This document shows, one piece after another, positions 22,222-64,000 of a stretch of DNA of 64,000 nucleotides. The DNA comes from Henckelia pumila (Eukaryota > Streptophyta > Magnoliopsida > Lamiales > Gesneriaceae). The notes under the pieces were generated by a model. The model worked only from the letters and a program-made list of their open reading frames with translations. It was not told the origin of the DNA and did not search any database. Positions within the stretch are counted from its first letter, which is position 1. Each line of letters begins with the position of its first letter. The DNA lies in the NCBI RefSeq assembly GCF_033568475.1, contig NC_133122.1:112422289-112486288 (forward strand), read 5' to 3'. Both the position numbers and the translations under genes were made by a program.

Positions 22222-22226
22222 TTAAG

Positions 22227-33357: not shown

Positions 33358-33680
33358 GCCTCTCTGCAAAGAAAATTTGCAGAAATGTTTTGTGCTGTCA
33401 AGACTTGGATCAAAGCATAAATCCTCAACAAACATGGATTCTACACATGCTATAAAATCTGGAAATATGCATACATACATATATAAAGTCTCAAGCATCA
33501 ATCCATGCAGTTATTACATCAAACGGATAGTTGTAAAGGAATTAAAGCCATAGGCTACACAAAGTGTACTACAAGTCTTAAGTTCCATAACAAGTTTGAT
33601 GTTATCTAAGGTACATCATGTAGTAGCCCGTACCCTAATTGAGTAATTAAAGGATTAATGCTAATTAATTGAATTAGGTA

Positions 33681-33958: not shown

Positions 33959-33963
33959 TTGTC

Positions 33964-33971
33964 TATAAATA
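33964..33971 (+). promoter_or_regulatory. TATA box of element B LTR promoter
   Basis: TATAAATA about 345 bases into the LTR, directly after the hairpin array; the copy in the 3' LTR is at 39906-39913. The U3/R boundary would be about 30 bases downstream. Confidence 0.7.
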
Positions 33972-34960
33972 GAAGGCCGAGACTTCACTTTCATTTGCCA
34001 ATTCCGAGTTCTCCTTTCCTTTCTAGTCCTTTTGGAGCTGTTCTAGTCTTCTTAGGCTTGGTCCGGAGGTCAGAGAGGCGTTCGGTAGTCGTAGCGGAGT
34101 CGTGCCCAAGTTCTGGAGGCATCGACATCAAAGGGCTAACGACGGACGAAGGTATAGCTTTTGCTCCCTATAAATATTTAGGAGTATGCAATAGCTTAGT
34201 TAAGGCTTTTAGAGCACTTTAATGATAGTAGTATCATTTGGCAGTGTAGAGCAGACTATAGGCGTGGACCTAGAGTTGGTAGAGCTTGCACTGTTTTGAG
34301 GTACGGAAGTACTGTTCGAGATATCCTGACTGAGTATGCATGTATTATATGACTGCATGATTTATATGCCATGATATTATACTACATTCATTTGCATCTT
34401 GCTGTATCTCCTTCGAGATGTCTGTAGTAGGGTTGTACCCTATCCTGTTAGTGGATGGACTTCCATCGATTTGGGTCCGGCGTATCCACGGTTATCTCGG
34501 TATGGGAGCCACCTCCTGAAGCGATGGCACAGCGTGCTACATACCAGGGCCCGGTCTGTCTCTGTTATCTGATCCTTGACCTCGAGTCTATAGGAGTTCA
34601 TTTTTCATGCATGTATACTCATACTCTCGCACTGAGCGTTTTATGCTCACGTCTCGTACTCTGTATTTTTTGGACACCCTATTCCATGGGGCAGGTTTGC
34701 GATTGGACGAGGAGGGTGGATCCAGGAGGGGCTAGTCAGTGGTTGGCCAGCTGGAGCTTCGTCTAGGTTTTATTACTGTTGTTTGGGTTTATACAGCTAT
34801 TCGATTTGGTTGTATATTATTGGATAATTTCAGATTCCTTTACTTGGGATTGTATAATGTTATTGGATTCCGCAGTTTTATTCTGATATCTGTTTAATTA
34901 AGTTAATTGCATGCATAAGTTCTGTTTAGTAGGTGATCCGGGTAAGGGTCACTACATTTA

Positions 34961-34972
34961 TGGTATCAGAGC
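34961..34972 (+). other. Primer-binding site of element B
   Basis: TGGTATCAGAGC four bases after the 5' LTR; initiator tRNA-Met type. Confidence 0.9.
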
Positions 34973-35021
34973 ATGCAAAAGAATTCTTGGGATTTAGTCT
35001 CATCTTGAGGTATTTTTGTAG

Positions 35022-38000: not shown

Positions 38001-39425
38001 TCTGAGCCAGCCTTGTATTCGCGGATCCGAGATGCTCAGATGTCTGATTCAAAGACCCAGCGTTTAGCTCGTCTAGCTAACGAGGGTAGCTCGTCTGGAT
38101 TTCATTATCAGTCAGATGGCTTTCTGTGTTTGTCTGGTAGGCTTGTGATTCCACAGGATGAAGAGTTGCGAGAGGAGATTTTATCTCAGGCACATCGCAC
38201 TAAGTTGAGTATTCATCCTGGGAGCAACAAGATGTACAAGGATCTACGTACTCGTTTCTGGTGGAAGGGAATGAAACGCAGTGTTTATCAGTTTGTTTCG
38301 AGATGTTTGGTGTGCCAACAGGTCAAAGCAGAGCACCGACGACCTGGAGGATTGCTTCACAGTCTGCCTATTCCTGAATGGAAATGGGAGTTTATCACTA
38401 TGGACTTTGTGACCCATTTGCCGGTATCCCCAAGGAACTGTGATGCTATCTGGGTGGTGGTGGACCGACTCACCAATTCAGCGCATTTCATTGCCTATAG
38501 CCGGGAGTACAATGTGGATCGTATGGCTCGGTTGTACATTCAGGAGATCGTTCGACTTCATGGAGTGCCTGTGAGCATTGTCAGCGATCGGGACCCCAGG
38601 TTTACTTCTAGATTCTGGGGGAGTGTTCAGCGTGCGATGGGTACTACTCTCAGTTTTAGTACAGCCTATCATCCGGAGACTGATGGTCAGTCAGAGCGCA
38701 CTATCCGTACGTTAGAAGATATGCTTAGAGCGTGCGTCATGGATTTTGGTTCAGCCTGGCAGGATCATTTGCCGTTGATCGAGTTCGCTTACAACAACAG
38801 CTATCACACTAGTATTGGGATGGCACCTTTTGAAGCGTTGTATGGGCGAGTTGTCGTACTCCACTCTTCTGGGAAGAAGTGGGGGAGAGACAGGCTGAAG
38901 GACCGGAGTTTATCCAGCAAGCGATAGACATTGTTGATCAGATCAAGAAATGGATTAAGACTGCACAGGATCGTCAGACCAGTTATGCTAATATCAAGCG
39001 TATTCGAGGTCGGAGAGAAAGTGTTTCTGAGAGTGTCACCTTTCCGCAAGATTCTCAGATTTGGCCTTAAGGGCAAGTTGTCTCCCAGATTTATCGGTCC
39101 GTTTGAAATCTTGGAGAGTATTGGCGATTTGGCTTATCGACTAGCATTGCCACCGCATCTATCCAGCATTCACGACGTGTTCCACGTATCTCTGTTGCGA
39201 CGGTATGTGGCGGATGAATCTCATATTCTGCAGCGATCTGAGGTTCAGGTAGACAAGGATTTGACTTATGTTGAGAAACCTCTTCGCATCCTGGATTATA
39301 AGGATAAGGTTTTACGGAACAAAGTCATTCCTTTGGTTTTAGTTCAGTGGCAGCGCCGAGGCACTGAGGAAGCTACTTGGGAGCTTGAGGACAGGATGCG
39401 TAAAGACCATCCTGAGTTGTTTTGA
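35022..39425 (+). pseudogene. gag-pol of element B, one nonsense and two frameshift breaks
   Basis: Gag (from 35022) has a Retrotrans_gag core, a zinc knuckle CFHCGETGHIRRDC preceded by CDHCGKNHPSDKC, then protease [10 protein letters not shown] near residue 360. A TGA at 36399-36401 lies where the related H frame has a Trp codon. The frame continues at once through RT (FIDDILVYS), RNase H ([13 protein letters not shown]) and integrase (HHCC region, [22 protein letters not shown]) to about 38850. There a single-base loss shifts the frame. A second shift near 38995-39010 restores it for the integrase C-terminus and chromodomain (to 39425). The remaining sequence is well conserved, so inactivation is recent. 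Confidence 0.9.
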
Positions 39426-39546
39426 TTTCATTCTTTAAGTTGTATTCAGTTGCAAACTCTGTAAACGTTTGATTTGAATAAAGAATGTTTCTGATTTCTG
39501 TATTTGCATTCGGTACTTAAGATCTGATTTCGAGGACGAAATATCT

Positions 39547-39560
39547 TAAGTGGGGGAGAA
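39547..39560 (+). other. Polypurine tract of element B
   Basis: AAGTGGGGGAGAA before the 3' LTR, preceded by TTTCGAGGACGAAAT. Confidence 0.85.
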
Positions 39561-40898
39561 TGTAGTAGCCCGTATCCTAATTGAGTAATTAAAGGATTAA
39601 TGCTAATTAATTTAATTAGGTATCGGACGGATCGGAAGCTCCGAAGGCACGATCGGAAGCTCCGAACAGGATCGGAAGCTCCGATGAGCGATCGGAGGCA
39701 CCGATGTTATTACGTCAGGCATGACGTGTGGTTGGATCGGAAGCTCCGATCAGGACCGGAAGCTCCGATCACCCCTATCCGGAGTCAACAAGTGATATTT
39801 TGACACGTGGTAGATCAGGATCTTCGGAAGCTCCGATGACAGGATCGGACGTTCCGATCGAGGTTCGGACGTTCCGATCAAGGATCGGAAGTTCCGATCG
39901 TTGTCTATAAATAGAAGGCCGAGACTTCTCTTTCATTTGCCAATTCCGAGTTCTCCTTTCCTTTCTAGTCCTTTTGGAGCTGTTCTAGTCTTCTTAGGCT
40001 TGGTCCGGAGGTCGGAGAGGCGTTCGGTAGTCGTAGCGGAGTCGTGCCCAAGTTCTGGAGGCATCGACATCAAAGGGCTAACGACGGACGAAGGTATAAC
40101 TTTTGCTCCCTATAAATATTTAGGAGTATGCAATAGCTTAGTTAAGGCTTTTAGAGCACTTTAATGATAGTAGTATCATTTGGCAGTGTAGAGCAGACTA
40201 TAGGCGTGGACCTAGAGTTGGTAGAGCTTGCACTGTTTTGAGGTACGGAAGTACTGTTCGAGATATCCTGACTGAGTATGCATGTATTATATGACTGCAT
40301 GATTTATATGCCATGATATTATGCTGCATTCATTTGCATCTTGCTGTATCTCCTTCGAGATGTCTGTAGTAGGGTTGTACCCTATCCTGTTAGTGGATGG
40401 ACTTCCATCGATTTGGGTCCGGCGTATCCACGGTTATCTCGGTATGGGAGCCACCTCCTGAAGCGACGGCACAGCGTGCTACATACCAGGGCCCGGTCTG
40501 TCTCTGCTATCTGATCCTTGACCTCGAGTCTATAGGAGTTCACTTTGCATGCATGTATACTCATACTCTCGCACTAAGCGTTTTATGCTCACGTCTCGTA
40601 CTCTGTATTTTCTGGACACCCTATTCCATGGGGCAGGTTTGCGATTGGACGAGGAGGGTGGATCCAGGAGGGGCTAGTCAGTGGTTGGCCAGCTGGAGCT
40701 TCGTCTAGGTTTTATTACTGTTGTTTGGGTTTATACAGCTATTCGATTTGGTTGTATATTATTGGATAATTTCAGATTCCTTTACTTGGGATTGTATAAT
40801 GTTATTGGATTCCGCAGTTTTATTCTGATATCTGTTTAATTAAGTTAATTGCATGCATAAGTTCTGTTTAGTAGGTGATCCGGGTAAGGGTCACTACA
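39561..40898 (+). repeat. 3' LTR of element B
   Basis: Same length as the 5' LTR, ends ...TCACTACA followed by the TSD catca. Confidence 0.93.
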
Positions 40899-43746: not shown

Positions 43747-45560
43747 GGAAAGAGTGGGTGCCCGGTGAGCCAACTTGTGGCTAAGGGCTTTGATGACTCT
43801 TTGTATAAACAATCTTTTGTTTAATATTATTTACACTTTTATTAATGGCAATGACTTTATCTTTCTTCATATTGTTATATTGTGATATACTATTGTTGTT
43901 TTGATAAAGACCTTGAATATACTATAGTGTATGTAAGATGTGGTAGAACATGGAGATGTCTATCATGAAACACATCTTATAGTCAATGTATATTCTAAAC
44001 TGTTCCTAGTCAATTGAGCCGTCCGATAATAAGGATAAGGATCGCTCGAGTTTGAGACTAGCATTTGCGATGCGGAGTACCACGTTTCATTGGTAAGGAA
44101 CATAGAGATGTTCGAAGCATGCAAATGGATATTCATATGATGAATGATCGAACTACCGTATCCGGACTTTCCAAGTGGTTATCACTTATCGAGTGGATAT
44201 AGTCCGCGGTTTTGATTGTACACCATTAGTCCTTATTACTTGAAAAATCATTGAGACTCTATATGCTAGTACTGTGCTTTGACTCGTTTACCGACTCTAT
44301 TGGGGTCATCAGGTGTCGGGATTGGGTACAGTTACAACACATATAGGAGTCGATGCTTTGTTGTCAAGGATTCACCACATACTTGCGAGTGTGGATATCC
44401 TATGCGATCTGAGGAGATATTAGTGTGACGAATCTCTGGCCAGAGTACATGATGTGTTTTAAGAAATGGTTTCTTAGTAACACATGCGATGTCACTATTT
44501 GATCTTCAAGATGTATTGCATAGTTATCGAATCTCGACGACTCTCGATATACCAATGGTTGTTGATTCGATCGGGATATATGGATGAAGGGACCGTACTG
44601 TACGCTAACCAAAATCTATTGGTTCTTGTAGGCACTATCAGTGATACCTAGGGAATCATGGGGCGATGTTGCTAGGCGCTCTTACCATGATTCGATGGGC
44701 AAGTCGGAAATTGTTGTTCCAAGTCACAAGGAGTTGTGAGCCCACGGCTAGCTGTATCCCTGAACCATTGAGGGTCACACAGTGTAATGGATTTTTAATC
44801 CCCGTTGAGATAGTTAAATTTAAAGAGTTAAATTTAATGAACAAAGAAGTTGGACTTCTTAATTATGAGTAGAGGAGTAAGATTTCCTAAAATGACATAG
44901 GGATGGACATTTTTGGAAACCACTGAATTCGGATTCAGAAAAATTTATCTTGACTATAAAAGGTGCAGAAATGGTTTCTGTGCACATTGGTGAAATCGGT
45001 TTATCAATCGGAGTCACGATGAATTTTATATTAATTTTTGAACATGCGGGCTTTACTTGTCGGGCTTGAACTTATGACTAATGGGCCCTAAGCTGTTAGT
45101 GGCCTACATTATAAATAAGTTATTGCAGTACAGAAATAAAACACAACAGGTCACAAAATATTTTTAAAACCCTAGCTGCGTTTTTAATAAGTGGCCGCCC
45201 CTTCCCTCCCTCTGCTCGAAAAATCCAGCCTGTGAATTTTGAATTGCAGTCTGGTTTAACGGATCAAATTCGTTAATCTCTTCGTAGAAACTTCTGATAG
45301 ATTTTCTAGTGCAATCTATCAGAGGGATTAAATATCCGTTCGTGGACCTGATTGAAGAACAGTTCGTCCATCAGTTCCAAGGATATACAACAAGAGCAGA
45401 GCAATCTGTTGGTGTCCATAATCTCGATTCGAGATTGGAGGTAAAAATTTATAATTGTTATTTAATTTTTACACACACAATTTAATCGTAAAAGTTTTGA
45501 TACCCAATATGGAATCGTTCCATATAAAATTTTTAAACTTCCGCTGCACCGGGTATCAAT
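43747..45560 (+). repeat. 5' LTR of element E (3' boundary approximate)
   Basis: Start by comparison with 62429: GAAAGAGTGGGTGCCCGGTG. The 3' LTR copy begins TGAAAGAG, so the first T here reads G. The end is placed near CACCGGGTATCA (45547-45558) because GCCCGGTG at the start and CACCGGG at the end mirror each other. No complete second LTR is available to confirm it. Confidence 0.65.
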
Positions 45561-46642
45561 CCTAATCGATTGCCATGACCAATTTTGTAGGTGTATGTTA
45601 GGAATTTACATTTGTTTTTATTGTTGTTGGATTTATTAATGGGCCTGGTTTATGGCCCAATATGAATGTCATATGTAATAAAATTGGGCTTGGTTTATGG
45701 CCCGTTCCCACCCCTTAAAAATGTATCCCCTGCTTGTCATTGTTATTTATTGTAAATACATTAGATTTAGTGGGAGATCAAGATTTGAAGATAGAGGTGG
45801 GCCCAGCAGACAATAAAGACAGAAGAAATGTAAATTGGAAGCAAATGTAATAGGATTGCATTGCATACTGCATATTACCTAGGATTGGACTAAGACTCGT
45901 GATTGGCAACCACGGGTCGATTAGAAATGGAATCGATCATCCTATATAATATGTGATATTATAGTTGTATGCATGTTTTAGACAAAATTGTGTGAATCCG
46001 ACAAGCATACAAAATTTTAAAAATGATGAGACAAATTTTCATAATTAAAAATCCCTCATTTTAAATATGATTTAAAATTGATATCAAGATAAATAAAGGA
46101 AATTTAAATTTGTTTAAATGTTCCTACCTTCCATCAACGATCAATGTATGAGATGCTACCCGCGGATACGGTCCGGCTCATATTATTGGGGGGGCCCGTT
46201 CATCGGAAAGCTGTACATTGGATCGACACATGTTGTAAGTTGGGTGGAACTCCCATGGGATCGGCTCATATTATTGGGGGATCCACATGGCGACCGTCCA
46301 TCACAACTTAATATTGATGGGTCATCTTGACATGTCACAATAAACGGCGTCATATTATTGGGCCCTTATTGGACATGAGGTAAAAACATGGAGGTTGCTT
46401 TGGAAGCAATTGGGCTCTACCTTTTGAAATTATGGTTGGCTGATATTATTCGGGACCATAGATTGTCAATTGGACTCCATGTTCTCACTAAGAAAAACAG
46501 TTTCCCGTTTTCACTAAAGGGTAGTGAAATCGTTAAAATAGTGGGAGTGAGATTCATAAAATAAATTTCGCCTATTTTATGTCTTAGTAAATTGCTTAAA
46601 CAATCACTGATATTTGTCTGTTTCTTTTTAGTATTTCATAAG
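45561..46642 (+). other. Leader of copia element E with repeated TATTATTGGG modules
   Basis: Non-coding stretch of about 1.1 kb before gag. The motif TCATATTATTGGG or a variant recurs at about 46178, 46265, 46351 and 46441, each followed by G/C-rich sequence (gggggcccg, gggatcc, gggccc, cgggacc), at spacing near 86-90 bases. I could not identify a clean PBS; the usual TGGTATCAGAGC is absent. Confidence 0.6.
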
Positions 46643-49313
46643 ATGAATTCGCGTAATCCACTTTTCTCGATCCTCGAACAAAATAAGTTGACTGGCGCAA
46701 ACTATACGGAATGGTTTCGTAAGTTGAAGATTGTCTTGACTTCGGAGAAGATGCTCTACGTGTTAGAAAAATCTCCTCCGAAGGAAGCACCAGCTGACGT
46801 AAGTCCGGAAGAGTTAGCCAAACTTGATACATGGTTGGACCATGATATCAAGACCAAATGCTATATGCAAGCCTCGATGTCTGATGAACTCCAGAGGCGA
46901 TTTGAGGACACCGTGAATGCTGCTGACATTCACGTTCAACTCAAGGAACTTTTTGGGGCTCAATCGAGGGCTGAAAGGTTCTCTACTGTAAAGGAGCTAA
47001 TGACGTGTCGCATGCGTGAAGGGACTTCGGTCCGTGATCATGGGTTACGAGTGATTTGGCTCATACAGAAGTTGGTAACCCTTGATTTGGTGTTGGAGCA
47101 TGAACTCAACGTGGACTTACTACTTTTGTCTCTTCCTTCTTCGTTTGACGGATTTGTGGTGAATTTCAATATGAACAAGATAGAGGCCTCCCTTGAAGAG
47201 ATGGTCAATATGCTTGTGACATATGAATCCACATTAAAGAAGGATAAACCGGCTTTCTTGGTGGGCTCCTCTTCTTCTGCTAAGAAGGGGCCAAGTACAA
47301 AGGGCAAGAAACGTTCTGCCCCACCCAAAAAATCGAACCCGAGAAGAAGTACAAGACAAAGGCTTCAAACATGGAAAAATCCAAGGATGTTTGCCATTAC
47401 TGCAAGAAGCCCGGTCATTGGAAGCGTAACTGCAAGGAATATCTAGAGCAGTTGCGAACTGCAAAGGGTATGTTCTATATTGAAATAAATGTTTCACTTA
47501 ATACTACTTCTTGGGTATTGGATACCGGATGTGGATCTCACATTTGCAATGATTTGCAGGTGATGACAAGAAGTCGCAGGCTTAGAATGGGTGAGACCCA
47601 GCTGAGGCTCGGAAATGGTTCCAGAGTTGAAGCTAAAGCCGTGGGAGATGTTTATTTAATTTTGCAGAACGGTTTTAAGTTACTTTTAAGAGATGTTTTA
47701 TTTGTTCCGGATTTGATTAAAAACATTATTTCTATTTCTATGCTTGATAGAGATGGTTATTCTTGCAATTTTGTGAATGGGATTTGCAATATTTACAAGA
47801 ATGAATGTTTAATTGGAAATGGACAACTTGAAAACGATCTATACAACTTAAAACTAAAAGACGTTCCAATAAATTATGTTGATAAACCGGCAACAACAAA
47901 CAAAAGGAAAATCGATAGCCAAAACCCGGCAAACCTTTGGCACGCTAGGCTAGGTCATATTTCCTCAAGGAGGATGAACAAGCTAGTGGGAGAGGGCATG
48001 TTTGATATGTCTGATATTAACTCTCTACCTACTTGTGAATCCTGCCTAAAAGGAAAAATGACTAAATCTCCTTTTAAGGGGAAACCTACCTTTACTGATG
48101 ATTATTCGAGGTATGAGTATTTATATTTAATGAAATATAAGTCTGAAGCATTTGAAAAGTTCAAAGAATTCAAGGCTGAAGTAGAAAACAAGCTAGGTAA
48201 AAGTATTAAAGCACTTCGATCGGATCGAGGTGGAGAATACTTAAGTACCGAGTTTTTGGACTATCTAAAAGAGAATGGGATTCTCTCTCAGTGGACTCCT
48301 CCTATGACACCACAGCCTTATGGTGTATCGGAGCATCATAATCGAACTTTGTTGGACATGGTTCAATCCATGATGAGCTTCACTGAGCTTCCACCTTCGT
48401 TTTGGGGCTATGCGCTTGAAACGGCGGTATTGTTGTTGAACAACGTCCACACTAAAGCAGTGGAAAAAACACCATACGAGTTATGGAATGGCAAAGCTCC
48501 TAAGTATTCGTACTTGCGGATTTGGGGATGTCCTGCTTACGTGAAGCAGACAGTGGGAGATAAGTTGGATAGTCGATCCAGCTTATGTTATTTTTAGGGT
48601 ATCCGAAGAATTCAATCGGATATTATTTCTATTATCCTGCTGAAACAAAGGTGTTTGTTTCAAGGAATTCCACCTTCTTGGAGAAGGAGTTCTTATTGGA
48701 TAAGAAAGGCGAGATGATGGAACTCAAAGAAATTCGAGAAGAACCCGAAATACAAAATAACGATCCTACACCTCAGAAACCATTGATAGACACGCCTGTA
48801 CCTAGAAGATCCGAGAGGACTTCTAGACCTCCTATTCGATATGGTCTTCTTTTTGAAGGGGATCAAGATGAACCCGATGTTGGATGTGATCCAAGAAACT
48901 TCAAGGAAGCAATTTCTGATGCGGATTCAAATTTATGGCTTGAAGCTATGCAGTCGGAAATAGATTCGATGCATACAAACCAAGTTTGGTCTTTAGTAGA
49001 TCCTCCCGATGGAATTGTTCCAATAGGGTGTAAATGGATCGACAAGAGAAAGCTTGGGCCTGATGGTAAGGTATTGACCTACAAGGCGCGATTGGTGGCA
49101 AAAGGTTATACTCAAAGACAAGGAGTTGACTATGATGAAACCTTTTCACCAGTTGCAATGTTCAAGTCCATAAGAATCCTTATTGCCATAGCTGCATGGT
49201 ATGACTATGAGATATGGCAAATGGATGTGAAGACTGCTTTTCTTAATGGAGACATTAAGGAAGAAATCTATATGAAGCAGCCTGAGGGGTTCACATCCAT
49301 GGGAAGCGAGCAT
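46643..49313 (+). pseudogene. gag, protease, integrase and start of RT of copia element E
   Basis: Gag from ATG 46643 (MNSRNPLFSILEQNKLTG) has the Copia gag fold region to about 47230. A frameshift near 47340 moves to the frame of the zinc knuckle CHYCKKPGHWKRNC, protease WVLDTGCGSHIC, GAG-pre-integrase zinc region (HARLGH ... CESCLKGK) and integrase. The integrase has an internal deletion at about 48090: KGKP runs straight into TFTDDYSRYEY, so the segment with the first catalytic Asp is missing, while FTDDYSR and PYGVSEHHNR remain. A further frameshift lies near 48590. RT then starts (QMDVKTAFLNGDI) and is cut at 49313 by element D. The frame is resumed at 61263. Confidence 0.85.
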
Positions 49314-49887
49314 TGATGAAACTTAAAATTTGTAATTATTTATATGTTAAAAAGTGTGTTTTAAAATTTAAGTTTAATTAAAATTATGAAGTTGTATTAT
49401 TTTAGTGTTATGTGTTTATATTTAAATGTTTTACTAAAATGTTGTATTTTACGGTTTGCGCAGGTTTGGTAAAAATAAAATTACTCAAGCTACAGTGGTC
49501 ATAATGGAGTAATCTCAAAACCTGTAGAATCACAAAAGAGGCATCTTCAACTTTGTAGAAGACAAGAAATTCCAAAAACTTCATTAAGATGATCAAAATA
49601 ATAAAACATCAAAATGGAGATAGATTTAATTTTACTATGACCAGCTTGGAGTAAAAATATCATAAGTATTTCATATTTTATCCAAAAGGGGTGAATGAGT
49701 TGTCCAAACACATCTACACAAAATATCCTACGTGTTTTATGTTGAAAAGAAAGGCTGAATCGGTGGTCTAAGGTATCAAACATGCCAATTAAAGTTGGGT
49801 CATGGTATTGACATTCAAGGAGACAAGCACCCACCAACTTTACTATTTCACATTTAATGAGCCTTGGACTCTTGCTCTCATTTGGCC

Positions 49888-49895
49888 TATAAATA
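49888..49895 (+). promoter_or_regulatory. TATA box in the LTR of element D
   Basis: TATAAATA, followed by a C/T- and GTG-rich start region; the 3' LTR copy is at 60037-60044. Confidence 0.7.
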
Positions 49896-50395
49896 GATGT
49901 GTTGTATAAGCTTTGTAGTGTGCAAGAGTGTAGAGAATTCTTCATTTGCAAAATAAATATTGTGTGTGTGAGAATAAAAGTTTGAGTGTGCAAGTTTCTC
50001 AAGTTCAAGTATGAAATTTCTTTTATCTTTATTCTTGAGTTTCATGTTCATGGAAAGCTAAATCTTTTTATGTCAAGGTGAAAAGGTTTCATTGTTGGTC
50101 AAGTAAGATTGTCTATATTTTGTATATTCTTTTCTTTTCTATTTTTATTTTTACTAATTGATCTTTATTTGTAGGTATAATTTTGGATGATTTGTTGTTA
50201 TCTATTTACATCAAATGCTTGGTACCTTGAATGTGGTTACCTTGATTTGTTGTCAAATATGATACAATAATTACTACAATAATTATATACTATAAATATA
50301 TGTATCTATTTATAATAAAGTCATATATATTATTTAGACGATAGCGTGACACTGTCGGTTGTTCTAAATAATATATTGTGATTTGAACTAACATT

Positions 50396-50525
50396 TACTT
50401 TATCGCATCTAACTTTTACTTTTATCGCAACTAACATTTACTTTTCCGCAACTAACATTTACTTTCTCGCATCTAACTTTTACTTTTCCGCAACTAACAT
50501 TTACTTTATCGCATCTAACATAAAG
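50396..50525 (+). repeat. Tandem repeat CGCAWCTAACWTTTACTTT in the LTR of element D
   Basis: About six units of 19-21 bases (tttatcgcatctaacttttac, ttttccgcaactaacatttac and variants). The 3' LTR carries the same array at about 60539-60668 with one base fewer. Confidence 0.85.
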
Positions 50526-51114
50526 TCATATATTTTATTTAGACGATAGCGTGGCTCTGCCGGTTGTTCTAAATAAAATATTGTGATTTGATCTAACATT
50601 TACTTTTATGTCAATTTATATTTATGCATTTATATATATTATGGGTACCATGTATTAAATATCGGTGGATATTAATATAGTGGGAACTATATTATATGAT
50701 ATACTTGTTTAAATATTTAATTGTTCTTTTTATGTTTATATTTATTCATCTATATATATATTATGGGTACCATGTATTAAATATCGGTTAATCTGATATT
50801 AATATAGTGGGAACTATATTATATGATATACTTGTTTAAATATTTCATTGTTCTTTTATGTTTATTTTTATTTTAGTTTCTTTTATTTATTTTTATTTAG
50901 CAATCTTAATTAAACCAACAATGAACCTTTGAAACCTTGACAATTTTATAATTTGTGTATTTGAAGTTTTATAATAATATTTTCATCTATAATATATTAT
51001 TGCTAAAATTAAACTTACAACATCCTCTCCGTGGATCGATCTCGTACTCACGAGTATATTACTTGCAGACAACCTACACTTGGGTGAATTACAATTTAAG
51101 TTGTAGCAAGTTTT

Positions 51115-51132
51115 TGGCGCCGTTGCCGGGGA
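51115..51132 (+). other. Primer-binding site of element D (tRNA-Asp type)
   Basis: TGGCGCCGTTGCCGGGGA lies six bases after the 5' LTR. This PBS is typical of Athila-type elements and unlike the tRNA-Met sites of the other gypsy elements here. Confidence 0.88.
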
Positions 51133-51188: not shown

Positions 51189-54100
51189 ATGATTGTTTGG
51201 AGTCGTAAACAAAGTGGTAGACTTGTTCGAGTAACTGAAAATATTTTAAACATGGACGATAATTCTAATAATCAATATGATAATAATAATAATAATCATC
51301 ATCAAGAACATGAACAACCAAGAACACTTAGGCACCATATGAATCCAATAAGAACTAGTACACCATCTTGTTTAGTTTTTCCTCCTGATGCATCTAATTT
51401 CAATTTTAAGCCACAAGTCATTCAACTTTTACCAAATTTTCATGGCTTAGATTCTGAAAATCCATATTTGCATTTAAGAGAATTTGAGGAGGTTTGCAAC
51501 ACTTATAATGATCAAAATTGTAGCATGGATACTGTTCGATTAAAGCTTTTCCCTTTTTCCTTAAAAGATAAAGGTAAAACATGGTTGCAAAATTTGAGAT
51601 CAAGTTCAATAAGATCATGGGAAGAAATGCAACAACAATTTCTAAAAAAGTTTTTTCCTTCCCATAGAACAAACTCTTTTAAAAGACAAATTACAACTTT
51701 TTCTCAAAAACAAGGGGAAACATTTTATCAATGTTGGGATAGATATAAAGAGTTACTTAATACATGCCCACATCATGGTTTTGAAATATGGAGAATAATT
51801 TCTCACTTTTATGAAGGTTTAATACCTAAAGATAGGCAAATGATAGAATTCATGTGTAATGGAACTTTTGAAGATAAAAACCCAAATGAAGCTATGGAAT
51901 ATTTGGAGTCATTAGCAGAAAATGCTCAAAATTGGGATAATATAGGCTCAATTGAACCAAGTAAAACCAATAATTCAACAAATGGGGGTGGTATTTATCA
52001 TCTTAAAGATGATGTAGATATTCAAGCTAAACTTGCATCTTTAGCAAGAAAATCGAGTCATTAGAAATGAAAAAGAGTGATCAATTAAAAAGTGTTCAAG
52101 AAATTGTTTGTCATATATGTGACACACATGATCATCTTACAAAAAATTGTCCTACTTTGCCTTCATTTAAAGAATGTCTCCATGAACAAGCCAATTATGT
52201 TAACAATTTTAAAAACCAACATTAGATCCTTTTTCACAAACATACAATCCTGGTTGGAGAAATCATCCCAATTTTAGTTGGAGGAACGATAATAATGCAC
52301 AACCTTCACAACAACCTTTTCAAAATAACCAAAGTCATCAAGGTTATGCTCCTTATATCCCACCTCCAAGAAAAAATTTTGAAGATGAAATTCATGCATA
52401 CATTCAAAAGCAAGAGTCTATCAATATTCAAAACATTCAATCTATGAATGATTTGAAAGAAACTCTTGCAAAATTTGCATCTGCACTTAATATTCATGAA
52501 AAAGGAAAATTTCCATCTCAACCACAACCTAATCCTAAAAATCAAAATCAAGAAAAATTTGATCAAGTAAAATCTGTTATTACTCTTAGAAGTGGTAAAA
52601 TAGTTAATGATCCATATAGTGATGAAAACAAAGATCAATTAAACTCAAAGAGTAAGGATTCAAATCCTGATACTTTTGAGAAAGATGATGCTTTGAGTCC
52701 TAAAAATAAGAAAATTGATGATAAAATAAATAAACATGTTCCTTTTCCTCATGCATTAGTAAATAATAAAAAACAAAAAAATGATTCTGATATTTATGAA
52801 GTTTTTAAACAAGTAAAAATAAATATTCCATTATTAGATGCTATTAAACAAGTTCCTTCTTATGCAAAGTTTTTAAAAGATTTATGTACTGTAAAAAGAC
52901 AATTGCATGTAAAGAAGAAAGCATTCTTAACGGAGCAAGTAAGCTCTATTATTCAAAATAATTCTACCTTGAAATATAAAGATCCCGGTTGTCCAACAAT
53001 TTCATGTATTATTGGAAAAAATAAAATTAAAAAAGCTTTGTTAGATTTGGGAGCAAGTGTGAATTTAATTCCTTATTCAGTTTATGAAAAGCTTAAGTTG
53101 GGAGATTTAAAACCTACATCTGTCACTCTTTTACTAGCCGATAGGTCAATCAAAATACCTAGAGGTATCGTAGAAGATGTGTTAGTTCAAGTCGATAAAT
53201 TCATATATCCTGTGGATTTTATTGTCTTGGATACACAACCAATAGAAGTACATAACGAAATTCCAGTAATATTGGGACGTCCATTTCTAGCAACTTCAAA
53301 TGCTCTAATTAATTGTCGAAATGGAATAATGAAATTGTCTTTTGGAAATATGACTTTAGAACTTAATGTGTTCAATTTATGTAAACAACCAAGTATTAAT
53401 GAAGATGAAGATGATAATGCAATAGAAACAATTGTGGAAGAAAATATACACCAAGAAAACTTAAATCAACAATCTGAAGTTTGTTTAGTGGAAAGTTTTG
53501 ATTCAAAAAATGTTTTTAAATCAAAGTTATTTGAAGAAATTAATGAACTTGAAGAAGTAAAAGAAAATGATCATCCAAAACTTAATTTAAAACCCTTGCC
53601 AATAGAACTAAAATATGCTTTTCTTGGTGAAAATCAAACATATCCTATTGTAATATCTTCTACCCTCTTACCAAAACAAGAAGAAGATGTAATAACACTA
53701 CTTAAAAAACACAAAAATGCAATTGGATGGACTTTGCAAGATATAAAAGGTATAAATCCTTTAATCTGCACACATAGAATTCACTTGGAAGAAAATGCTA
53801 AAACATATCAACAACCACAAAGAAGATTAAATCCACACATGAAAGAAGTTGTTAAAAATGAAGTTTTAAAACTATTAGATGCCGGAATTATTTATCCAAT
53901 CTCGGATAGTAAATGGGTAAGTCCAACACAAGTAGTACCAAAAAAATCAGGCATCACTGTTATAAAAAATGAAAAGGGAGAATTATTACAAGCTAGGATT
54001 CCATCTAGTTGGCGTATGTGCATTGATTATAGAAAATTAAATGATGCAACTAGAAAAGATCACTTTCCGTTACCATTTTTAGATCAAATTTTAGAGAAAG

Positions 54101-56471
54101 TGGCAGGTAATCCTTATTATTGTTTTCTTGATGGGTATTCGGGGTATTATCAAATACCAATATCATTAGAAGATCAAGAAAAAACTACTTTCACTTGTCC
54201 GTTCGGAACTTTTGCTTTTAAAAGAATGCCATTTGGTTTATGTAATGCCCCGGCTACTTTTCAAAGATGCATGCTAAGTATTTTTAGTGACATGATTGAA
54301 GAATTTGTGGAAGTTTTTATGGATGATATAACTGTTTTTGGAAACTCATTTGAAAACTGTCTTAAAAATTTGGAAGAAGTTTTAAAAAGATGTGAAGAAA
54401 AAAATCTTGTTTTAAATTGGGAAAAATGTCACTACATGGTTAAATCCGGAATTGTGTTAGGGCATGTCATATCTGAAAAAGGAATTGAAGTTGATAAAGC
54501 TAAGGTTGATGTTATTGCTAATTTACCATCACCAAACACGATCAAAGAAATTCGATCATTTTTGGGTCATGCAGGATTTTATAGAAGATTTATAAAAAAT
54601 TTTAGCATAATATCGAAACCAATTTCAAATCTTTTAACAAAAGATGCACAATTTGAATGGACTCAAGAATGTGAAACTGCTTTTAAAAAAATAATTAATC
54701 TTTTAACTACATCACCTATTTTACAACCTCCTGATTGGTCTTTACCATTTGAATTAATGTGTGATGCAAGTGATTATGCTGTAGGAGCCGTGTTAGGACA
54801 AAGAAAAGAAGGTAAACCTTATGTGATCTATTATGCAAGTAGAACATTAAATAGTGCTCAAATCAATTATTCAACAACTGAAAAAGAATTACTTTCAGTA
54901 GTGTTTGCATTAGATAAATTTCGATCCTATTTAATTGGTTCTACTACTATTGTTTACACTGATCATTCTGCCATAAAATATTTATCAAATAAACAAGATG
55001 CTAAGCCAAGATTAATAAGATGGATTTTGTTGTTACAAGAATTTGATCTTGTAATAAGAGATAAAAAAGGAAAAGAAAATGTAGTAGCCGATCATTTATC
55101 AAGAATAATTTTTGAATCATCTCAAAATGAAATACCAATAAATGAAAATTTTCCGGATGATCAACTATTTTATGCTACTACTATGCCTTGGTTTGCTAAT
55201 ATTGTAAATTTTCTTGTGACAAATAAAATGCCTTCTCATTGGAGTTCACAAGATAAAAATAAATTTTTGAAAGAGGTCAAAAAATTTTATTGGGATGATC
55301 CTTATTTGTTTAAGTATTGTCCTGATCAAATTTTTCGACGATGCATACCCGACAATGAGGTAAGTAGTGTCATTAAATTTTGTCATTCTGAGGCATGTGG
55401 AGGTCATTTTTCGTCAAAGAAAACAGCTGCAAAAATCTTTCAATGTGGATTTTATTGGCCTTCTTTATTCAAAGATACACATTCATTTTGCAAATCTTGT
55501 GAAAATTGTCAGAAAATGGGTTCAATTTCAAAACGAAACATGATGCCTTAAATCCAATCATGATTATTGAAATATTTGACAGTTGGGGAATAGATTTTAT
55601 GGGTCCATTTCCATTATCTTTTGGATTCACTTATATTTTAGTAGCTGTCGATTATGTTTCAAAATGGATTGAAGCAATTGCATGTAGAACTAATGATCAT
55701 AAAGTTGTGATAAAATTTTTGAAAGAAAATATTTTTAGTCGATTTGGAATACCTAGAGCTATAATAAGTGATGGGGGAAGTCATTTTATAAATAAATCAT
55801 TTTCTTCGTTGTTAAGAAAATATGGTATTACACATAAAGTCTCTACTCCATATCACCCTCAAACGAATGGTCAGGTTGAACTTGCAAATAAAGAAATAAA
55901 ACAAATTTTGGAAAAAACAGTCAATCCAAATCGAAAAGATTGGTCTTTAAGATTAAGTGATGCATTATGGGCATATAGAACTGCATTTAAAACATCAATG
56001 GGGATGTCACCATACAGATTAGTTTTTGGAAAGCATTGTCATTTACCTGTTGAAATTGAACATAAAGCTTATTGGGCAATTAAAGCGTTTAATACTAATT
56101 TAGATGATGCATCTAAATCAAGAAAATTGCAATTAAATGAACTAGAAGAATTAAGAAATGATGCATATGAAAATGCAAAGATTTATAAAGATAAAACAAA
56201 AGCATTTCATGATAAAAATATTATGAGAAAATCTTTTGAAATCGGACAAAAAGTTTTACTTTATAATTCTCGCTTGCATTTGTTTCCAGGAAAACTTAGA
56301 TCGCGATGGTCTGGACCATTTATTGTTAAATTTGTCTATCCTCATGGTGCCGTTGATGTTGAAAATCCTAAAAATAATAATGTATTTAAAGTTAATGGGC
56401 AAAGACTTAAACCGTTTATAGAAAATGAAGTTCTTAATGAAAAGTTTATGCCTTTATATGATCCAACTTAA
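51189..56471 (+). pseudogene. gag-pol of element D (Athila type), open apart from three single-base frameshifts
   Basis: Gag begins at 51189 or at the ATG at 51252 (MDDNSNNQYDN). The frame is interrupted near 52052 (A run), then carries the zinc knuckle CHICDTHDHLTKNC, and is interrupted again near 52211-52215 (A run). From there pol is open to 55551: protease with LLDLGASVNLIP, RT (WRMCIDYRKLND, FMDDITVF), RNase H (CDASDYAVGAVLGQ, YTDHSAIKYL) and the HHCC zinc region. A third one-base loss at about 55550 (T run) shifts into the integrase core (55506-56471) with DFMGPF, SDGGSHF and [14 protein letters not shown]. There is no chromodomain. All three breaks are single-base losses in homopolymers, so they may be sequencing errors; otherwise the copy is dead. 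Confidence 0.88.
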
Positions 56472-56484
56472 TTGTTACTTATAT

Positions 56485-56504
56485 TTTTATTTTATTTTTG
56501 CAGA
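56485..56504 (+). promoter_or_regulatory. Candidate 3' splice site before the cargo ORFs
   Basis: A T-rich tract ending TTTTATTTTTGCAG lies just after the pol stop and 113 bases before the NABP-like ATG. Env-class genes in this position are known to be made from spliced RNA in some plant elements (for example Bagy-2). Inferred from sequence only. Confidence 0.45.
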
Positions 56505-57361: not shown

Positions 57362-58000
57362 ATGACAGGATCTTCTTCACAAAAATTGAAAAATATTTGT
57401 GTCTTTTGTGGTTCTAATACTGGAAAGAATGAAATATTTGTTGATGCAGCAATTAATCTTGGAAAAAAGTTAGCAGAGAGAAAAATTCACTTGGTTTACG
57501 GAGGAGGCAATATAGGGTTAATGGGATCTATTTCAACAGCAGCTCATCTTGGAGGTAGTCAGGTTTTGGGTATTATTCCTACAGCTTTAGCTGAAGGAAA
57601 TATTACAGGTGTTACGGTTGGGGAAGAGTTGAAAGTTTCATCAATGTACGAGAGAATAACTAAAATGATAGAAAATTCTGATGCTTTTATTGCCTTACCT
57701 GGTGGTTTTGGTACTTTAGAAGAAATTTTTCATGTTGTTTCTTGGGCACAACTTAATATCCATAATAAACCTGTTGGCTTGTTGAATATCAATAACTATT
57801 ATGATGGTTTGTTGACTTTTCTCGATGTAGCCGTGGAACAAAATTTTATTTCAGAAAATTCACGAAGGATGCTCATCTCTGCTTCGAATGAAGACCAATT
57901 AATTGATGATCTCCAAGCTTTTGTTCATCAACCTGATTCAGCTATAACAAAGATCAATTGGTCTCAACCAACCAGTAAGAAAAGAAAACTGGATCATTGA
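57362..58000 (+). CDS. LOG: LONELY GUY-type cytokinin riboside 5'-monophosphate phosphoribohydrolase inside element D
   Basis: LOG enzymes release active cytokinin bases from their riboside monophosphates in one step (cytosol and nucleus). The 212-aa ORF is full length. Motifs: CVFCGSNTGK (13-22), YGGGNIGLMG (46-55), the signature PGGFGTLEE (113-121) and WAQLNIHNKPVGLLN (108-122 region onward). The catalytic Arg98 and Glu121 of the family are kept; residue 99, usually Lys in plant LOGs, is Ile. A basic SKKRKLD end could be a nuclear signal. Host LOG genes have several introns, this copy has none, so it was captured through RNA. It lies 192 bases after the NABP-like ORF and inside the LTRs of D, where Athila elements carry env. 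A+T-rich codon use like gag-pol suggests long residence. Family is certain; activity is not shown. Confidence 0.93.
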   Translation: MTGSSSQKLKNICVFCGSNTGKNEIFVDAAINLGKKLAERKIHLVYGGGNIGLMGSISTAAHLGGSQVLGIIPTALAEGNITGVTVGEELKVSSMYERITKMIENSDAFIALPGGFGTLEEIFHVVSWAQLNIHNKPVGLLNINNYYDGLLTFLDVAVEQNFISENSRRMLISASNEDQLIDDLQAFVHQPDSAITKINWSQPTSKKRKLDH

Positions 58001-59449: not shown

Positions 59450-59462
59450 CCGGTTTGGGGTG
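59450..59462 (+). other. Polypurine tract of element D (weak)
   Basis: CCGGTTTGGGGTG directly before the 3' LTR; G-rich but not a pure purine run. Confidence 0.5.
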
Positions 59463-61257
59463 TGATGAAACTTAAAATTTGTAATTATTTATATGTTAAA
59501 AAGTGTGTTTTAAAATTTAAGTTTAATTAAAATTATGAAGTTGTATTATTTTAGTGTTATGTGTTTATATTTAAATGTTTTACTAAAATGTTGTATTTTA
59601 CGGTTTGCGCAGGTTTGGTAAAAATAAAATTACTCAAGCTACAGTGGTCATAATGGAGTAATCTCAAAACCTGTAGAATCACAAAAGAGGCATCTTCAAC
59701 TTTGTAGAAGACAAGAAATTCCAAAAACTTCATTAAGATGATCAAAATAATAAAACATCAAAATGGAGATAGATTTAATTTTACTATGACCAGCTTGGAG
59801 TAAAAATATCATAAGTATTTCATATTTTATCCAAAAGGGGTGAATGAGTTGTCCAAACACATCTACACAAAATATCCTACGTGTTTTATGTTGAAAAGAA
59901 AGGCTGAATCGGTGGTCTAAGGTATCAAACATGCCAATTAAAGTTGGGTCATGGTATTGACATTCAAGGAGACAAGCACCCACCAACTTTACTATTTCAC
60001 ATTTAATGAGCCTTGGACTCTTGCTCTCATTTGGCCTATAAATAGATGTGTTGTATAAGCTTTGTAGTGTGCAAGAGTGTAGAGAATTCTTCATTTGCAA
60101 AATAAATATTGTGTGTGTGAGAATAAAAGTTTGAGTGTGCAAGTTTCTCAAGTTCAAGTATGAAATTTCTTTTATCTTTATTCTTGAGTTTCATGTTCAT
60201 GGAAAGCTAAATCTTTTTATGTCAAGGTGAAAAGGTTTCATTGTTGGTCAAGTAAGATTGTCTATATTTTGTATATTCTTTTCTTTTCTATTTTTATTTT
60301 TACTAATTGATCTTTATTTGTAGGTATAATTTTGGATGATTTGTTGTTATCTATTTACATCAAATGCTTGGTACCTTGAATGTGGTTACCTTGATTTGTT
60401 GTCAAATATGATACAATAATTACTACAAAATTATATACTATAAATATATGTATCTATTTATAATAAAGTCATATATATTATTTAGACGATAGCGTGACAC
60501 TGTCGGTTGTTCTAAATAATATATTGTGATTTGAACTAACATTTACTTTATCGCATCTAACTTTTACTTTATCGCAACTAACATTTACTTTTCCGCAACT
60601 AACATTTACTTTCTCGCATCTAACTTTTACTTTTCCGCAACTAACATTTACTTTATCGCATCTAACATAAAGTCATATATTTTATTTAGACGATAGCGTG
60701 GCTCTGCCGGTTGTTCTAAATAAAATATTGTGATTTGATCTAACATTTACTTTTATGTCAATTTATATTTATGCATTTATATATATATTATGGGTACCAT
60801 GTATTAAATATCGGTGGATATTAATATAGTGGGAACTATATTATATGATATACTTGTTTAAATATTTAATTGTTCTTTTTATGTTTATATTTATTCATCT
60901 ATATATATATTATGGGTACCATGTATTAAATATCGGTTAATCTGATATTAATATAGTGGGAACTATATTATATGATATACTTGTTTAAATATTTCATTGT
61001 TCTTTTATGTTTATTTTTATTTTAGTTTATTTTATTTATTTTTATTTAGCAATCTTAATTAAACCAACAATGAACCTTTGAAACCTTGACAATTTTATAA
61101 TTTGTGTATTTGAAGTTTTATAATAATATTTTCATCTATAATATATTATTGCTAAAATTAAACTTACAACATCCTCTCCGTGGATCGATCTCGTACTCAC
61201 GAGTATATTACTTGCAGACAACCTACACTTGGGTGAATTACAATTTAAGTTGTAGCA
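59463..61257 (+). repeat. 3' LTR of element D
   Basis: Nearly identical to the 5' LTR, followed by TSD agcat at 61258-61262. Confidence 0.95.
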
Positions 61258-61262
61258 AGCAT

Positions 61263-62414
61263 AAGGTATGCAAGCTTCAGAGATCAATTTATGGTCTAAA
61301 ACAAGCATCAAGAAGTTGGAACCAGAAATTTGATGAAACAATAAAAGATTTTGGTTTCATCAAGAATCCGGAGGAACCATGCGTGTACAAGAAAGTAGTT
61401 AAGGATGCGGTGACATTCTTAGTACTTTATGTTGATGACATCCTACTCATTGGGAATGACGTAGGGATGTTACAGTCAACGAAGATATGGTTATCAGGTA
61501 GATTCTCGATGAAGGATTTGGGTGAGGCATCCTATATTCTTGGGATACAGATCTATAGAGATAGATCTAAGAGAATGATAGGACTCACTCAATCAACCTA
61601 CATCGACACCATATTGAAACGGTTTTCAATGGATGGGTCCAAGAGAGGACATCTACCCATGTGTCATGGAGTTTCTCTATCCAAGTCTATGTGTCCCAAG
61701 ACTGATGAAGAGATAGAGAAAATGACACATGTACCATATGCGTCAGTCATAGGTAGTATCATGTATGGGATGATATCTACCAGACCGGATGTAGAATTTG
61801 CTCTGAGTATCACGAGCAGATATCAAGCTAATCCTGGTCAAATGCATTGGAAAGCCGTGAAGGACATTCTTAAGTACTTGCGAAGGACTAACAATATGTT
61901 CATGGTATATGGAGGAAGAGAACTAAAATTGGAAGGTTATACCGACTCTAGCTTCCAAAGTGACGTGGATGACTCGAAGTCAACCTCTAGATTTGTGTTC
62001 ATGCTCAATGGCGGTGCTGTCTCTTGGAAGAGTTCCAAGCAGGACACCACAGCGGATTCCACCACTGAAGCAGAATACATTGCAGCATCAGCTGCTGCTA
62101 AAGAGGCCGTTTGGATGAGGAATTTCGTCCAAGAGTTGGGCGTCATTCCTGAAGTTGTTGGTACAGTCCCGGTGTACTATGACAACACGGGTGCCGTTGC
62201 TCAGGCAAAGGAACCAAGGTCTCATCAAAGATCCAAACACGTACTGAGGAAATACCACATCATCCGGGAGATTGTGGAAAGAGAAGACATCACTGTCGAA
62301 AGAGTGGCCTCTGCAGACAATATCGCTGATCCACTTACTAAGCCCTTGCCAGGACCATTATTTGACAAACATCGCGAAACAATGGGTCTACGTAGTATGA
62401 CTAGTTGGCTATAG
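61263..62414 (+). pseudogene. Rest of RT and RNase H of copia element E
   Basis: The frame resumes exactly where D split it: residues ...GSEH end at 49313 and KVCKLQRSIYGLKQ follows after the duplicated agcat. Landmarks are YVDDILLIGND, LGIQIYRDRS, and RNase H with GYTDSSFQSD, TEAEYIAASAAAKEAVW and KHVLRKYHIIRE; it ends with the stop at 62412-62414. This part is intact as a reading frame. It is followed by the polypurine tract GGGCAAGTGGGAGA (62414-62427). Confidence 0.9.
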
Positions 62415-62428
62415 GGCAAGTGGGAGAT

Positions 62429-62970
62429 TGAAAGAGTGGGTGCCCGGTGAGCCAACTTGTGGCTAAGGGCTTTGATGACTCTTTGTATAAACAATCTTTT
62501 GTTTAATATTATTTACACTTTTATTAATGGCAATGACTTTATCTTTCTTCATATTGTTATATTGTGATATACTATTGTTGTTTTGATAAAGACCTTGAAT
62601 ATACTATAGTGTATGTAAGATGTGGTAGAACATGGAGATGTCTATCATGAAACACATCTTATAGTCAATGTATATTCTAAACTGTTCCTAGTCGATTGAG
62701 CCGTCCGATAATAAGGATAAGGATCGCTCGAGTTTGAGACTAGCATTTGCGATGCGGAGTACCACGTTTCATTGGTAAGGAACATAGAGATGTTCGAAGC
62801 ATGCAAATGGATATTCATATGATGAATGATCGAACTACCGTATCCGGACTTTCCAAGTGGTTATCACTTATCGAGTGGATATAGTCCGCGGTTTTGGTTG
62901 TACACCATTAGTCCTTATTACTTGAAACATCATTGAGACTCTATATGCTAGTACTGTGCTTTGACTCGTT
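62429..62970 (+). repeat. 3' LTR of element E, first 542 bp, then interrupted
   Basis: Matches 43747-44288 with about three differences, then stops in the middle of ...GACTCGTT where a second LTR begins. Confidence 0.85.
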
Positions 62971-64000
62971 TGTAAGAGTAGGTGCCCAGTGAGCCAACTG
63001 TGTGGCTATGGGCTTTGATGACTCTTTGTATAAACAATCTTTTGTTTAATATTATTTACACTTTTATTAATGGCAATGACTTTATATTACTTCATATTGT
63101 TATATTGTGATATACTATTGTTGTTTTGATAAAGACCTTGAATATACTATAGTGTATGTAAGATGTGGTAGAACATGGGGATGTCTATCATGAAATACAT
63201 CTTATAGTCACTGTATATTCTAAAACCGTTCCTAGTCGATTGAGCCGTCCGATAATAAGGATAAGGATCGCTCGAGTTTGAGACTAGCATTTGCGATGCG
63301 GAGTACCACGTTTCATTGGTAGGGAACATGGAGATGTTCGAAGCATGCAAATGGATATTCATAGGATGAATAATCGAACTACCGTATCCGGACTTTCCAA
63401 GTGGTTATCACTTATCGAGTGGATAAAGTCCGCGGTTTTGGTTGTACACCATTAGTCCTTACGACTTGAAACATCATGGAGACTCTATATGCTAGTGCTG
63501 TGCTTTGACTCGTTTACCGACTCTATGGGGGTCATCAGGTGTCGAGATTGGGTACAGTTACGACACATATAGGAGTCAATGCATTGTTGTCAAGGATTCA
63601 CCACATACTTGCGAGTGTGGATATCCTATGCGATCTGAGGAGATATTAGTGTGACAAATCTCTGGCCAGAGTACTTGATGTGATTTAAGAAATGGTTTCT
63701 TAGTAGCACATGCGATGTCACTAATTTGATCTTCAAGATGTATTGCATAGTTATCGAATCTTGAGCGACTCTCGATATACCAATGGTTGTTGATTCGATC
63801 GGGATATATGGATGAAGGGACCGTACTGTACGTGAACCAAAATCTACTGGTTCTTGTAGGCACTATCAGTGATACCTAGGGAATCATGGGGCGATGTTGC
63901 TAGGCGCTTTACCATGATTCGTTGGGCAAGTCGGAAATTGTTGTTCCGAGTCACAAGGAGTTGTGAGCCCACGGCTAGCTGTATCCCTGAACCATTGAGG
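62971..64000 (+). repeat. Second LTR of the E family, inserted in the 3' LTR of E
   Basis: Starts TGTAAGAGTAGGTGCCCAG and follows the E LTR sequence to the window end (to the equivalent of about 44780). It differs from the LTRs of E clearly more than these do from each other (for example aactgtgtggctatggg versus aacttgtggctaaggg). The candidate TSD is tcgtt at 62966-62970. The right end and any internal region lie outside the window. Confidence 0.75.

Follow-up and report, generated by a model that had tools for sequence, protein, structure and literature searches.

An LTR retrotransposon with an intact LOG gene

The window, by which we mean the whole stretch of 64,000 nucleotides of Henckelia pumila DNA that was analyzed, contains an LTR retrotransposon with two accessory open reading frames (ORFs) between pol and its 3′ LTR (Table 1). 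The first encodes a protein that matches profiles of viral nucleic acid-binding proteins (NABP), and the second encodes a protein of the LOG family. In this copy, three separate ORFs make up the gag-pol region. The LOG ORF has no internal stops and lies inside the two LTRs, with AGCAT on both sides of the element, so that the preliminary description of an intact, element-borne LOG ORF at this place is confirmed.

Table 1 Features of the LOG-bearing element in the window
Feature	Position	Strand	Basis or remark
Target site duplication AGCAT, left	49309..49313	.	right copy at 61258-61262
5′ LTR	49314..51108	+	terminal-repeat comparison
Putative primer binding site TGGCGCCGTTGCCGGGGA	51115..51132	+	read from sequence; presumed match to tRNA-Asp
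Splice-donor-like G/GTATAA	~51134	+	after the putative primer binding site; sequence only
gag ORF (PF03732)	51189..52064	+	ORF list and Pfam profile match
pol ORF: protease-like, RT, RNase H, integrase zinc domain	52444..55551	+	Pfam
Integrase core and C-terminus (PF00665)	55506..56471	+	Pfam
Pyrimidine-rich stretch ending TTTGCAG, splice-acceptor-like, just 3′ of pol	56485..56503	+	alignment
Accessory ORF 1 (NABP), 183 aa	56618..57169	+	Pfam PF05515, PF01623
Accessory ORF 2, element-type LOG, 212 aa	57362..58000	+	ORF, Pfam, NCBIfam and structure matches
G-rich stretch GGTTTGGGGTG, putative polypurine tract, 5′ of the 3′ LTR	59452..59462	+	sequence
3′ LTR	59463..61257	+	terminal-repeat comparison
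Target site duplication AGCAT, right	61258..61262	.	pairs with 49309..49313

The element is young, as had been claimed for it: an alignment of its LTRs, 1,799 columns long with two shared bases past the LTR end counted in, shows a single transversion and four gap columns. With a substitution rate of ~1.3e−8 per site and year, the single LTR substitution dates the insertion to roughly tens of thousands of years ago. In the Pfam layout of pol, the RNase H domain reaches to residue 867 and the integrase zinc domain begins at residue 968; a second RNase H would hardly fit into the ~100 residues between them. An extra RNase H marks the Tat lineage, and Athila elements have the order gag-PR-RT-RH-INT without it (excerpts of PMC6317226). 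Judged from domain spacing alone, the LOG-bearing element therefore appears to fit Athila rather than angiosperm Tat. The Athila ORF-1 domain PF03078 had no match in the five element ORFs scanned with Pfam; according to the same excerpts, this domain is present in 16% of Athila elements, so most lack it.

The LOG-bearing element interrupts a Copia element, parts of which occupy positions 46592-49313 and 61258-62414. A profile scan found Copia gag (PF14223) and pol domains upstream of the insertion, and an ORF that resembles the remainder of Copia pol was read by eye downstream of it. Probable Copia LTRs lie at 43748-44289 and 62430-62971 (99.4% identical), and a further copy follows in tandem from about 62970. 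The window also holds a Gypsy element at 20132-29283 (terminal repeats 20132-22221 and 27190-29283, 99.0% identical) with RT, RNase H, integrase and a chromodomain match below the cut-off, and a second one at 33618-40898 (terminal repeats 33618-34956 and 39560-40898, also 99.0% identical) with gag, protease, RT, RNase H and integrase domains. A direct repeat of 1,536 bases at 1-1536 and 4505-6040 (98.4% identical) perhaps represents the LTRs of another element.

The LOG protein matches PF03641 over profile positions 1-130 of 131 (E = 5e−39) and TIGR00730 with 177.4 bits against a cut-off of 96.35 (E = 2e−52), and it matches the solved structures of AtLOG3 (2a33, E = 3e−64) and AtLOG8 (1ydh, E = 7e−57). 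The full-length profile match, the PGGxGTxxE motif and the catalytic Arg and Glu together place it in the LOG family; the signatures YGGGNIGLMG and PGGFGTLEE, as well as Arg98 and Glu121, were all found where the preliminary description had read them. The score against the equivalog model NF058542 was 122.9 bits, short of its 300, a value that plant LOGs may not reach either. With the plant cytokinin riboside 5′-monophosphate phosphoribohydrolases AtLOG3 and AtLOG8, the window protein shares the family, the catalytic Arg and Glu, and PGGxGTxEE. In contrast to them, it lacks Lys99 and Glu124, having Ile99 and His124 in the substrate pocket, carries a basic tail, and is encoded by an element.

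The LOG gene is multiplied with the element across the genome

The assembly that was searched measures 884.7 Mb. A protein search with LOG returned 466 candidates, of which 150 were scored, the window's own copy among them. All 150 scored places match at 97-100% identity over the full or nearly the full length, they lie on many contigs, and 34 of them reach the top score. This uniform match excludes a chance presence of LOG in the element. Further copies had been named beforehand as a check on the claim that LOG moves with its element, and the claim holds: all 70 loci that were fetched contain both LOG and NABP, and 68 of them also the integrase end. The element order was printed for 5 of these 70 loci, and the 960 bases upstream of LOG were aligned in all of them. 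A separate search with NABP (150 scored of 505 candidates) found a scored LOG at a distance of 727-845 bp on the same strand for 117 of the 150 NABP copies, and for 55 of the best 60; in the other 33 of the 150, LOG may be unscored or decayed. Stops interrupt 13 of the 150 scored LOG copies versus 23 of the 150 scored NABP copies, the two lists having been ranked separately. The copy numbers of LOG and NABP rule out a single odd copy. An artifact of assembly or annotation, which would have to recur at 150 scored places on many contigs and in 70 loci with both accessory genes, 68 of them with the integrase end, and which would leave the LOG homologs from other species without account, has a practically negligible probability.

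Within-genome variation was analyzed in 70 of the 150 scored copies. They were ranked by LOG similarity, with 30 at the top score, and the sample is therefore biased. In these 70 LOG-ranked copies, fourfold diversity is similar in LOG (.0195), NABP (.0219) and the spacer (.0224) and lower in the integrase end (.0107), and second-position diversity is.0033,.0145 and.0096 in LOG, NABP and the integrase end, respectively. Among variants found in at least six copies, nonsynonymous and synonymous changes number 1 and 7 in LOG, 5 and 4 in NABP, and 3 and 1 in the integrase end; among single-copy variants, the corresponding numbers are 45 and 17, 61 and 24, and 52 and 5. The pN/pS ratios across all 70 copies are 0.50 for LOG, 0.67 for NABP and 1.66 for the integrase end. 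When the sample is narrowed to the 33 copies that are also in the best 60 for NABP, LOG has a pN/pS of 0.59 (21 and 10 variants), which is not low, and NABP and the integrase end have 0.27 (8 and 8) and 1.47 (18 and 3). The pN/pS of LOG within the genome is thus not a clear sign of constraint.

These ratios of 0.50 and 0.59 are what one might see if LOG were a functionless passenger, transduced and amplified with the element, and LTR elements are known to transduce genes (excerpts of PMC7264820). Such a passenger is nevertheless very improbable. Second-position diversity in LOG (.0033) is lower than its fourfold diversity (.0195), although ranking by LOG similarity biases both values, and stops are fewer in LOG than in NABP in the separately ranked lists. 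The reading frame, the catalytic residues and the tail pattern persist across relatives that are 56-88% identical to the window protein (20 aligned), and this persistence we take as selection on LOG.

Related LOG proteins form a lineage of their own

Scoring 8,000 candidate relatives of the window LOG gave 7,973 matches, of which the best 120 were listed. These 120 and the window protein (n = 121) are referred to below as element-type. The host-type set for comparison consists of the 120 matches listed among 8,000 candidates when stretches of AtLOG3 and AtLOG8 were the queries, and it contains LOG1/3/4-like and LOG8-like proteins only. Two of the best 120 of the 7,973 relatives are 78 and 88% identical to the window protein, and identities of 57-67% follow. 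The relatives come from at least nine genera (Primulina, Diplodiscus, Reevesia, Pterospermum, Populus, Paulownia, Melia, Parasponia and Xanthoceras), and some of them represent clusters of many sequences, 327 in the case of one from Pterospermum. The element-type proteins are 44-59% identical (median, 50) to their nearest host-type row, and the window protein about 53%.

We infer that all 121 compared proteins are element-borne from surroundings that were seen in the window genome and, elsewhere, indirectly for a few. The Xanthoceras prediction P0003 includes a 38-aa stretch that is 55% identical to the pol ORF in the window, and two pairs of LOG and NABP matches (P0065/P0139, 4511; P0012/P0216, 2128) have the same source and the same contig size. 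Six members of the element-type set (P0010, P0032, P0054, P0073, P0082 and P0096) are annotated as LOG3-like, LOGL10 or LOG enzyme in public genomes of plants. Some annotated plant LOG genes may therefore be element genes, and counts of the LOG family may be inflated.

A tree was built from 43 element-type and 25 host-type proteins and one outgroup, with the tail and positions 99 and 124 excluded. A single branch sets the element-type LOGs apart (98/93; present in 100% of 200 bootstrap trees), in a tree that has long branches and narrow host sampling. Rooting rests on a single, very long-branched LOG from a viral contig (40% identity), and the element-type fork then has a support of 84/94. A first quick tree (40, 25 and one proteins) gave the same split between element and host types (95). 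The viral outgroup, the one LOG that a scan of viral contigs returned, lies at the edge of an IMG/VR contig (L001:1-573), and its pocket carries Lys and Glu as in the host type.

The substrate pocket is altered and the catalytic residues are kept

In Corynebacterium glutamicum LOG, Lys100, Glu125, Met96, His97 and Trp129 belong to a dimer-interface pocket that presumably takes the prenyl group, Lys100 is also placed at the adenine, and the pocket Met, His, Lys, Glu and Trp are stated for AtLOG3, OsLOG, CpLOG and CgLOG (excerpts of PMC4979012). The plant numbering that we use is that of C. glutamicum minus one, a shift set in the present analysis. The window protein has M95, Y96, I99, H124 and W128 at these places and thus differs at three of the five prenyl/adenine pocket positions.

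The change is shared by the lineage. In the element-type set (best 120 of 7,973 matches and the window protein), the catalytic residues Arg98 and Glu121 are found in 115 and 118 of the 121 proteins. Position 99, which is Lys in all 120 listed host-type proteins, is Met, Ile or Leu in 114 of the 121. Position 124, likewise Glu in 120 of 120 listed host-type proteins, is Gln or His in 110 of the 121 and another residue in 4. The proteins that keep Lys99 and those that keep Glu124 are the same 7 of the 121, and both residues are gone in the other 114. Among the remaining pocket positions, H96 is replaced in 67 of the 121 and W128 is kept in 120. The preliminary description had singled out Ile99 as unusual; the residue is real, but it is a trait of the lineage rather than a peculiarity of the window copy, and its coupling to position 124, like the LxLxL tail of the relatives, had been overlooked. 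On the tree, the loss of Lys99 requires one change and the loss of Glu124 one change. Xanthoceras P0067/P0100 together with P0089/P0090 have the host-type pocket, do not have LxLxL, and fall outside a clade of 39 (99/100).

Because Lys99 and Glu124 were lost together and the catalytic pair was kept, the presumed cytokinin side-chain pocket appears to have been rebuilt in a coordinated way, with the cleavage site unchanged. When residues of the AMP site in the C. glutamicum enzyme, Lys100 named among them, were changed to alanine, activity on AMP was almost completely lost, Ser19 excepted, in a text that does not itemize the mutants (excerpts of PMC4979012). By analogy, the element LOG enzyme may be dead.

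These residues bear directly on plain cytokinin activation, the role favored by the preliminary description, in which the element LOG would convert cytokinin nucleotides to active cytokinins and so promote division of the cells that express the element and, with it, transmission of the element. The retention of the catalytic residues and PGGxGTxEE, of W128 in 120 of 121 element-type proteins (best 120 of 7,973 and the window protein), and of K99 and E124 in the early-branching members would suit this role. The earlier wording "hormone-activating enzyme" is weakened by a family without two residues that are placed in the adenine/prenyl pocket (excerpts of PMC4979012): K99 and E124 are both lost in 114 of the 121 proteins, H96 is different in 67, and the LxLxL tail of the relatives would be unneeded for cytokinin activation. 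On balance, plain cytokinin activation seems to us rather unlikely, and the earlier interpretation as a whole is partly supported.

Most relatives have a C-terminal LxLxL behind a basic cluster

Within the last 12 residues, LxLxL is found in 98 of the 121 element-type proteins (best 120 of 7,973 and the window protein) versus 0 of the 120 listed host-type proteins, 6 of which have the motif elsewhere in the chain, never C-terminally. Of the 121, 108 have a basic cluster among their last 22 residues, versus 1 of the 120, and 93 versus 0 have both features. LxLxL is missing from 23 of the 121, including the window copy, whose protein ends in KKRKLDH and so has the basic stretch KKRK without LxLxL. 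On the tree, LxLxL requires three changes, for which a single gain followed by two losses is the simplest account; one of the losses falls in the window's clade of five (100/99), where the other four proteins do not have LxLxL either.

Conservation of the tail was evaluated in 100 of the 121 rows, selected for the basic cluster and a length of 212-221, after exclusion of the rows that bear any of five named endings without LxLxL. In these 100 tail-selected rows, Leu at positions −5, −3 and −1 is kept in 99, 97 and 99, respectively. On a quick tree built from residues 1-196, these positions underwent at least 1, 3 and 1 changes versus at least 6, 6 and 15 at positions −6, −4 and −2.

In published abstracts, an EAR motif is defined as LxLxL or DLNxxP. 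We read the LxLxL tail of element-type LOGs as a candidate EAR motif, from its sequence pattern, and the window protein does not have one. Proteins of foreign agents that are tied to TOPLESS or to an EAR-type motif have precedents in HaRxL21 (PMC7446885), Jsi1 (PMC8126959) and PopP2 (PMC5539180). As described in excerpts of these papers, those proteins are pathogen effectors of oomycete, fungal and bacterial origin that have been put to the test, whereas the element LOG is known by sequence alone and the window copy itself is without LxLxL.

In another reading, the LOG fold would serve only as a noncatalytic, nucleotide-binding or dimerizing platform, with the protein acting as a nuclear corepressor adaptor by way of its tail, or else through other partners. 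The joint loss of the pocket residues and the low variation of the LxLxL positions relative to their neighbors agree with such an adaptor. The presence of R98 in 115 and of E121 in 118 of the 121 proteins (best 120 of 7,973 and the window protein) is hard to explain without catalysis, however, and the window's sub-lineage has multiplied without LxLxL, as seen in the 34 top-score places among the 150 scored. We therefore regard a noncatalytic adaptor as unlikely.

The NABP partner

The NABP protein scores just above the curated thresholds of PF05515 (Viral_NABP; 25.9 versus 23 bits) and PF01623 (Carla_C4; 23.1 versus 20.9 bits). Of 292 candidate relatives, 227 match at E up to 0.001, and all 23 relatives that were scanned match both profiles at E up to 0.01. 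The four cysteines of the C-x2-C-x4-C-x3-C pattern are invariant in 23 aligned relatives. The organisms named among the best 120 of the 227 are plants, among them Populus, Xanthoceras, Acer, Rhamnella and Orobanche. In the Rhamnella prediction P0206, an integrase C-terminus (78% identical to that of the window over 111 aa) runs into NABP. A scan of viral contigs returned no NABP relatives, no NCBIfam family was matched, and the sole match among solved structures was not significant (E = 0.2).

The scanned relatives of the element NABP thus match both profiles of the carlavirus-type proteins (PF01623 and PF05515), but the element NABP sits in an LTR element, and its Cys spacing presumably differs from that of the viral proteins. 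Some carlavirus proteins act as silencing suppressors, and by analogy the element NABP may do so as well.

The two accessory genes could be expressed from spliced messages. The TTTGCAG of the acceptor-like site is intact in 67 of the 71 rows aligned, which are the 70 loci and the window, whose copy is also among the 70. Read from the sequence, joining of the donor-like to the acceptor-like site would yield a spliced message, as in retroviruses, that encodes NABP and perhaps LOG.

A proposed history of the captured LOG gene

We propose that an Athila-like lineage took up a plant LOG gene long before the window copy was inserted. The captured gene, intronless in the copies seen in the window genome, would have been retained as a second accessory gene 3′ of the nucleic acid-binding ORF, and both would probably be expressed through spliced transcripts originating in the 5′ LTR. 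The early branches (Xanthoceras and P0089/P0090) would have retained the normal LOG pocket. In a later branch, Lys99 and Glu124 would have been replaced, with Arg98, Glu121 and the phosphate-binding motif retained, and the C-terminal LxLxL would have been gained behind the basic stretch; the window's sub-lineage would now have the basic stretch only. We conjecture that the enzyme still releases the base of a nucleoside monophosphate, now one with an altered side chain, that it acts in the nucleus, that the members with LxLxL also recruit the TOPLESS corepressor, and that LOG in some way benefits the element.

As for the core of this proposal, namely an accessory gene that is kept by selection, retains its nucleotide chemistry, has an altered substrate and is probably nuclear, the sequence comparisons leave us evenly divided between accepting and doubting it. 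A retrotransposon may, on this proposal, use a LOG enzyme to act on its host cell. More tentatively, and with a probability that we would put well on the lower side, a eudicot-wide lineage could have turned the captured LOG into a nuclear effector with a new nucleotide specificity and a nuclear-import/TOPLESS tail, delivered with NABP as a two-gene toolkit against, or for the reprogramming of, the host.

Relation to LOG-type domains and enzymes reported in other elements

The preliminary description knew of no described example of a LOG gene in a retrotransposon, and this claim falls. A LOG-type YgdH domain was reported in Gypsy consensus sequences of Citrus sinensis, C. clementina and Populus trichocarpa (excerpts of PMC9289625), which rules out that LOG in Gypsy elements is unreported; the same source calls the finding in line with Steinbauerova 2011. 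The likeness lies in an extra LOG-type domain in plant Ty3/gypsy elements, and these elements and that of the window are probably of the same kind. The account in those excerpts takes two sentences, within which the NABP partner, the pocket change, the tail, the copy structure and a LOG tree are absent. In a weak search of the open-access literature, we recognized no description of the NABP partner, of the pocket change or of an EAR-like tail on an element protein. What is known is the LOG-type domain in Gypsy elements; what that search did not turn up is an account of the change in the LOG enzyme.

That LTR elements carry accessory ORFs is well established, and in plants the functions of these genes are mostly unknown (excerpts of PMC7264820). 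The element LOG is an accessory gene with a known chemistry, a pocket change that is placed on a tree and, in most members, a tail with a testable partner, and this combination makes the role of such accessory genes an experimental question. A comparable case of an LTR element with an ORF for a host-type enzyme is an orchid Gypsy with a captured AlkB-type RNA demethylase (excerpts of PMC9289625). Enzyme, element and host are different there, and the orchid enzyme is active in vitro.
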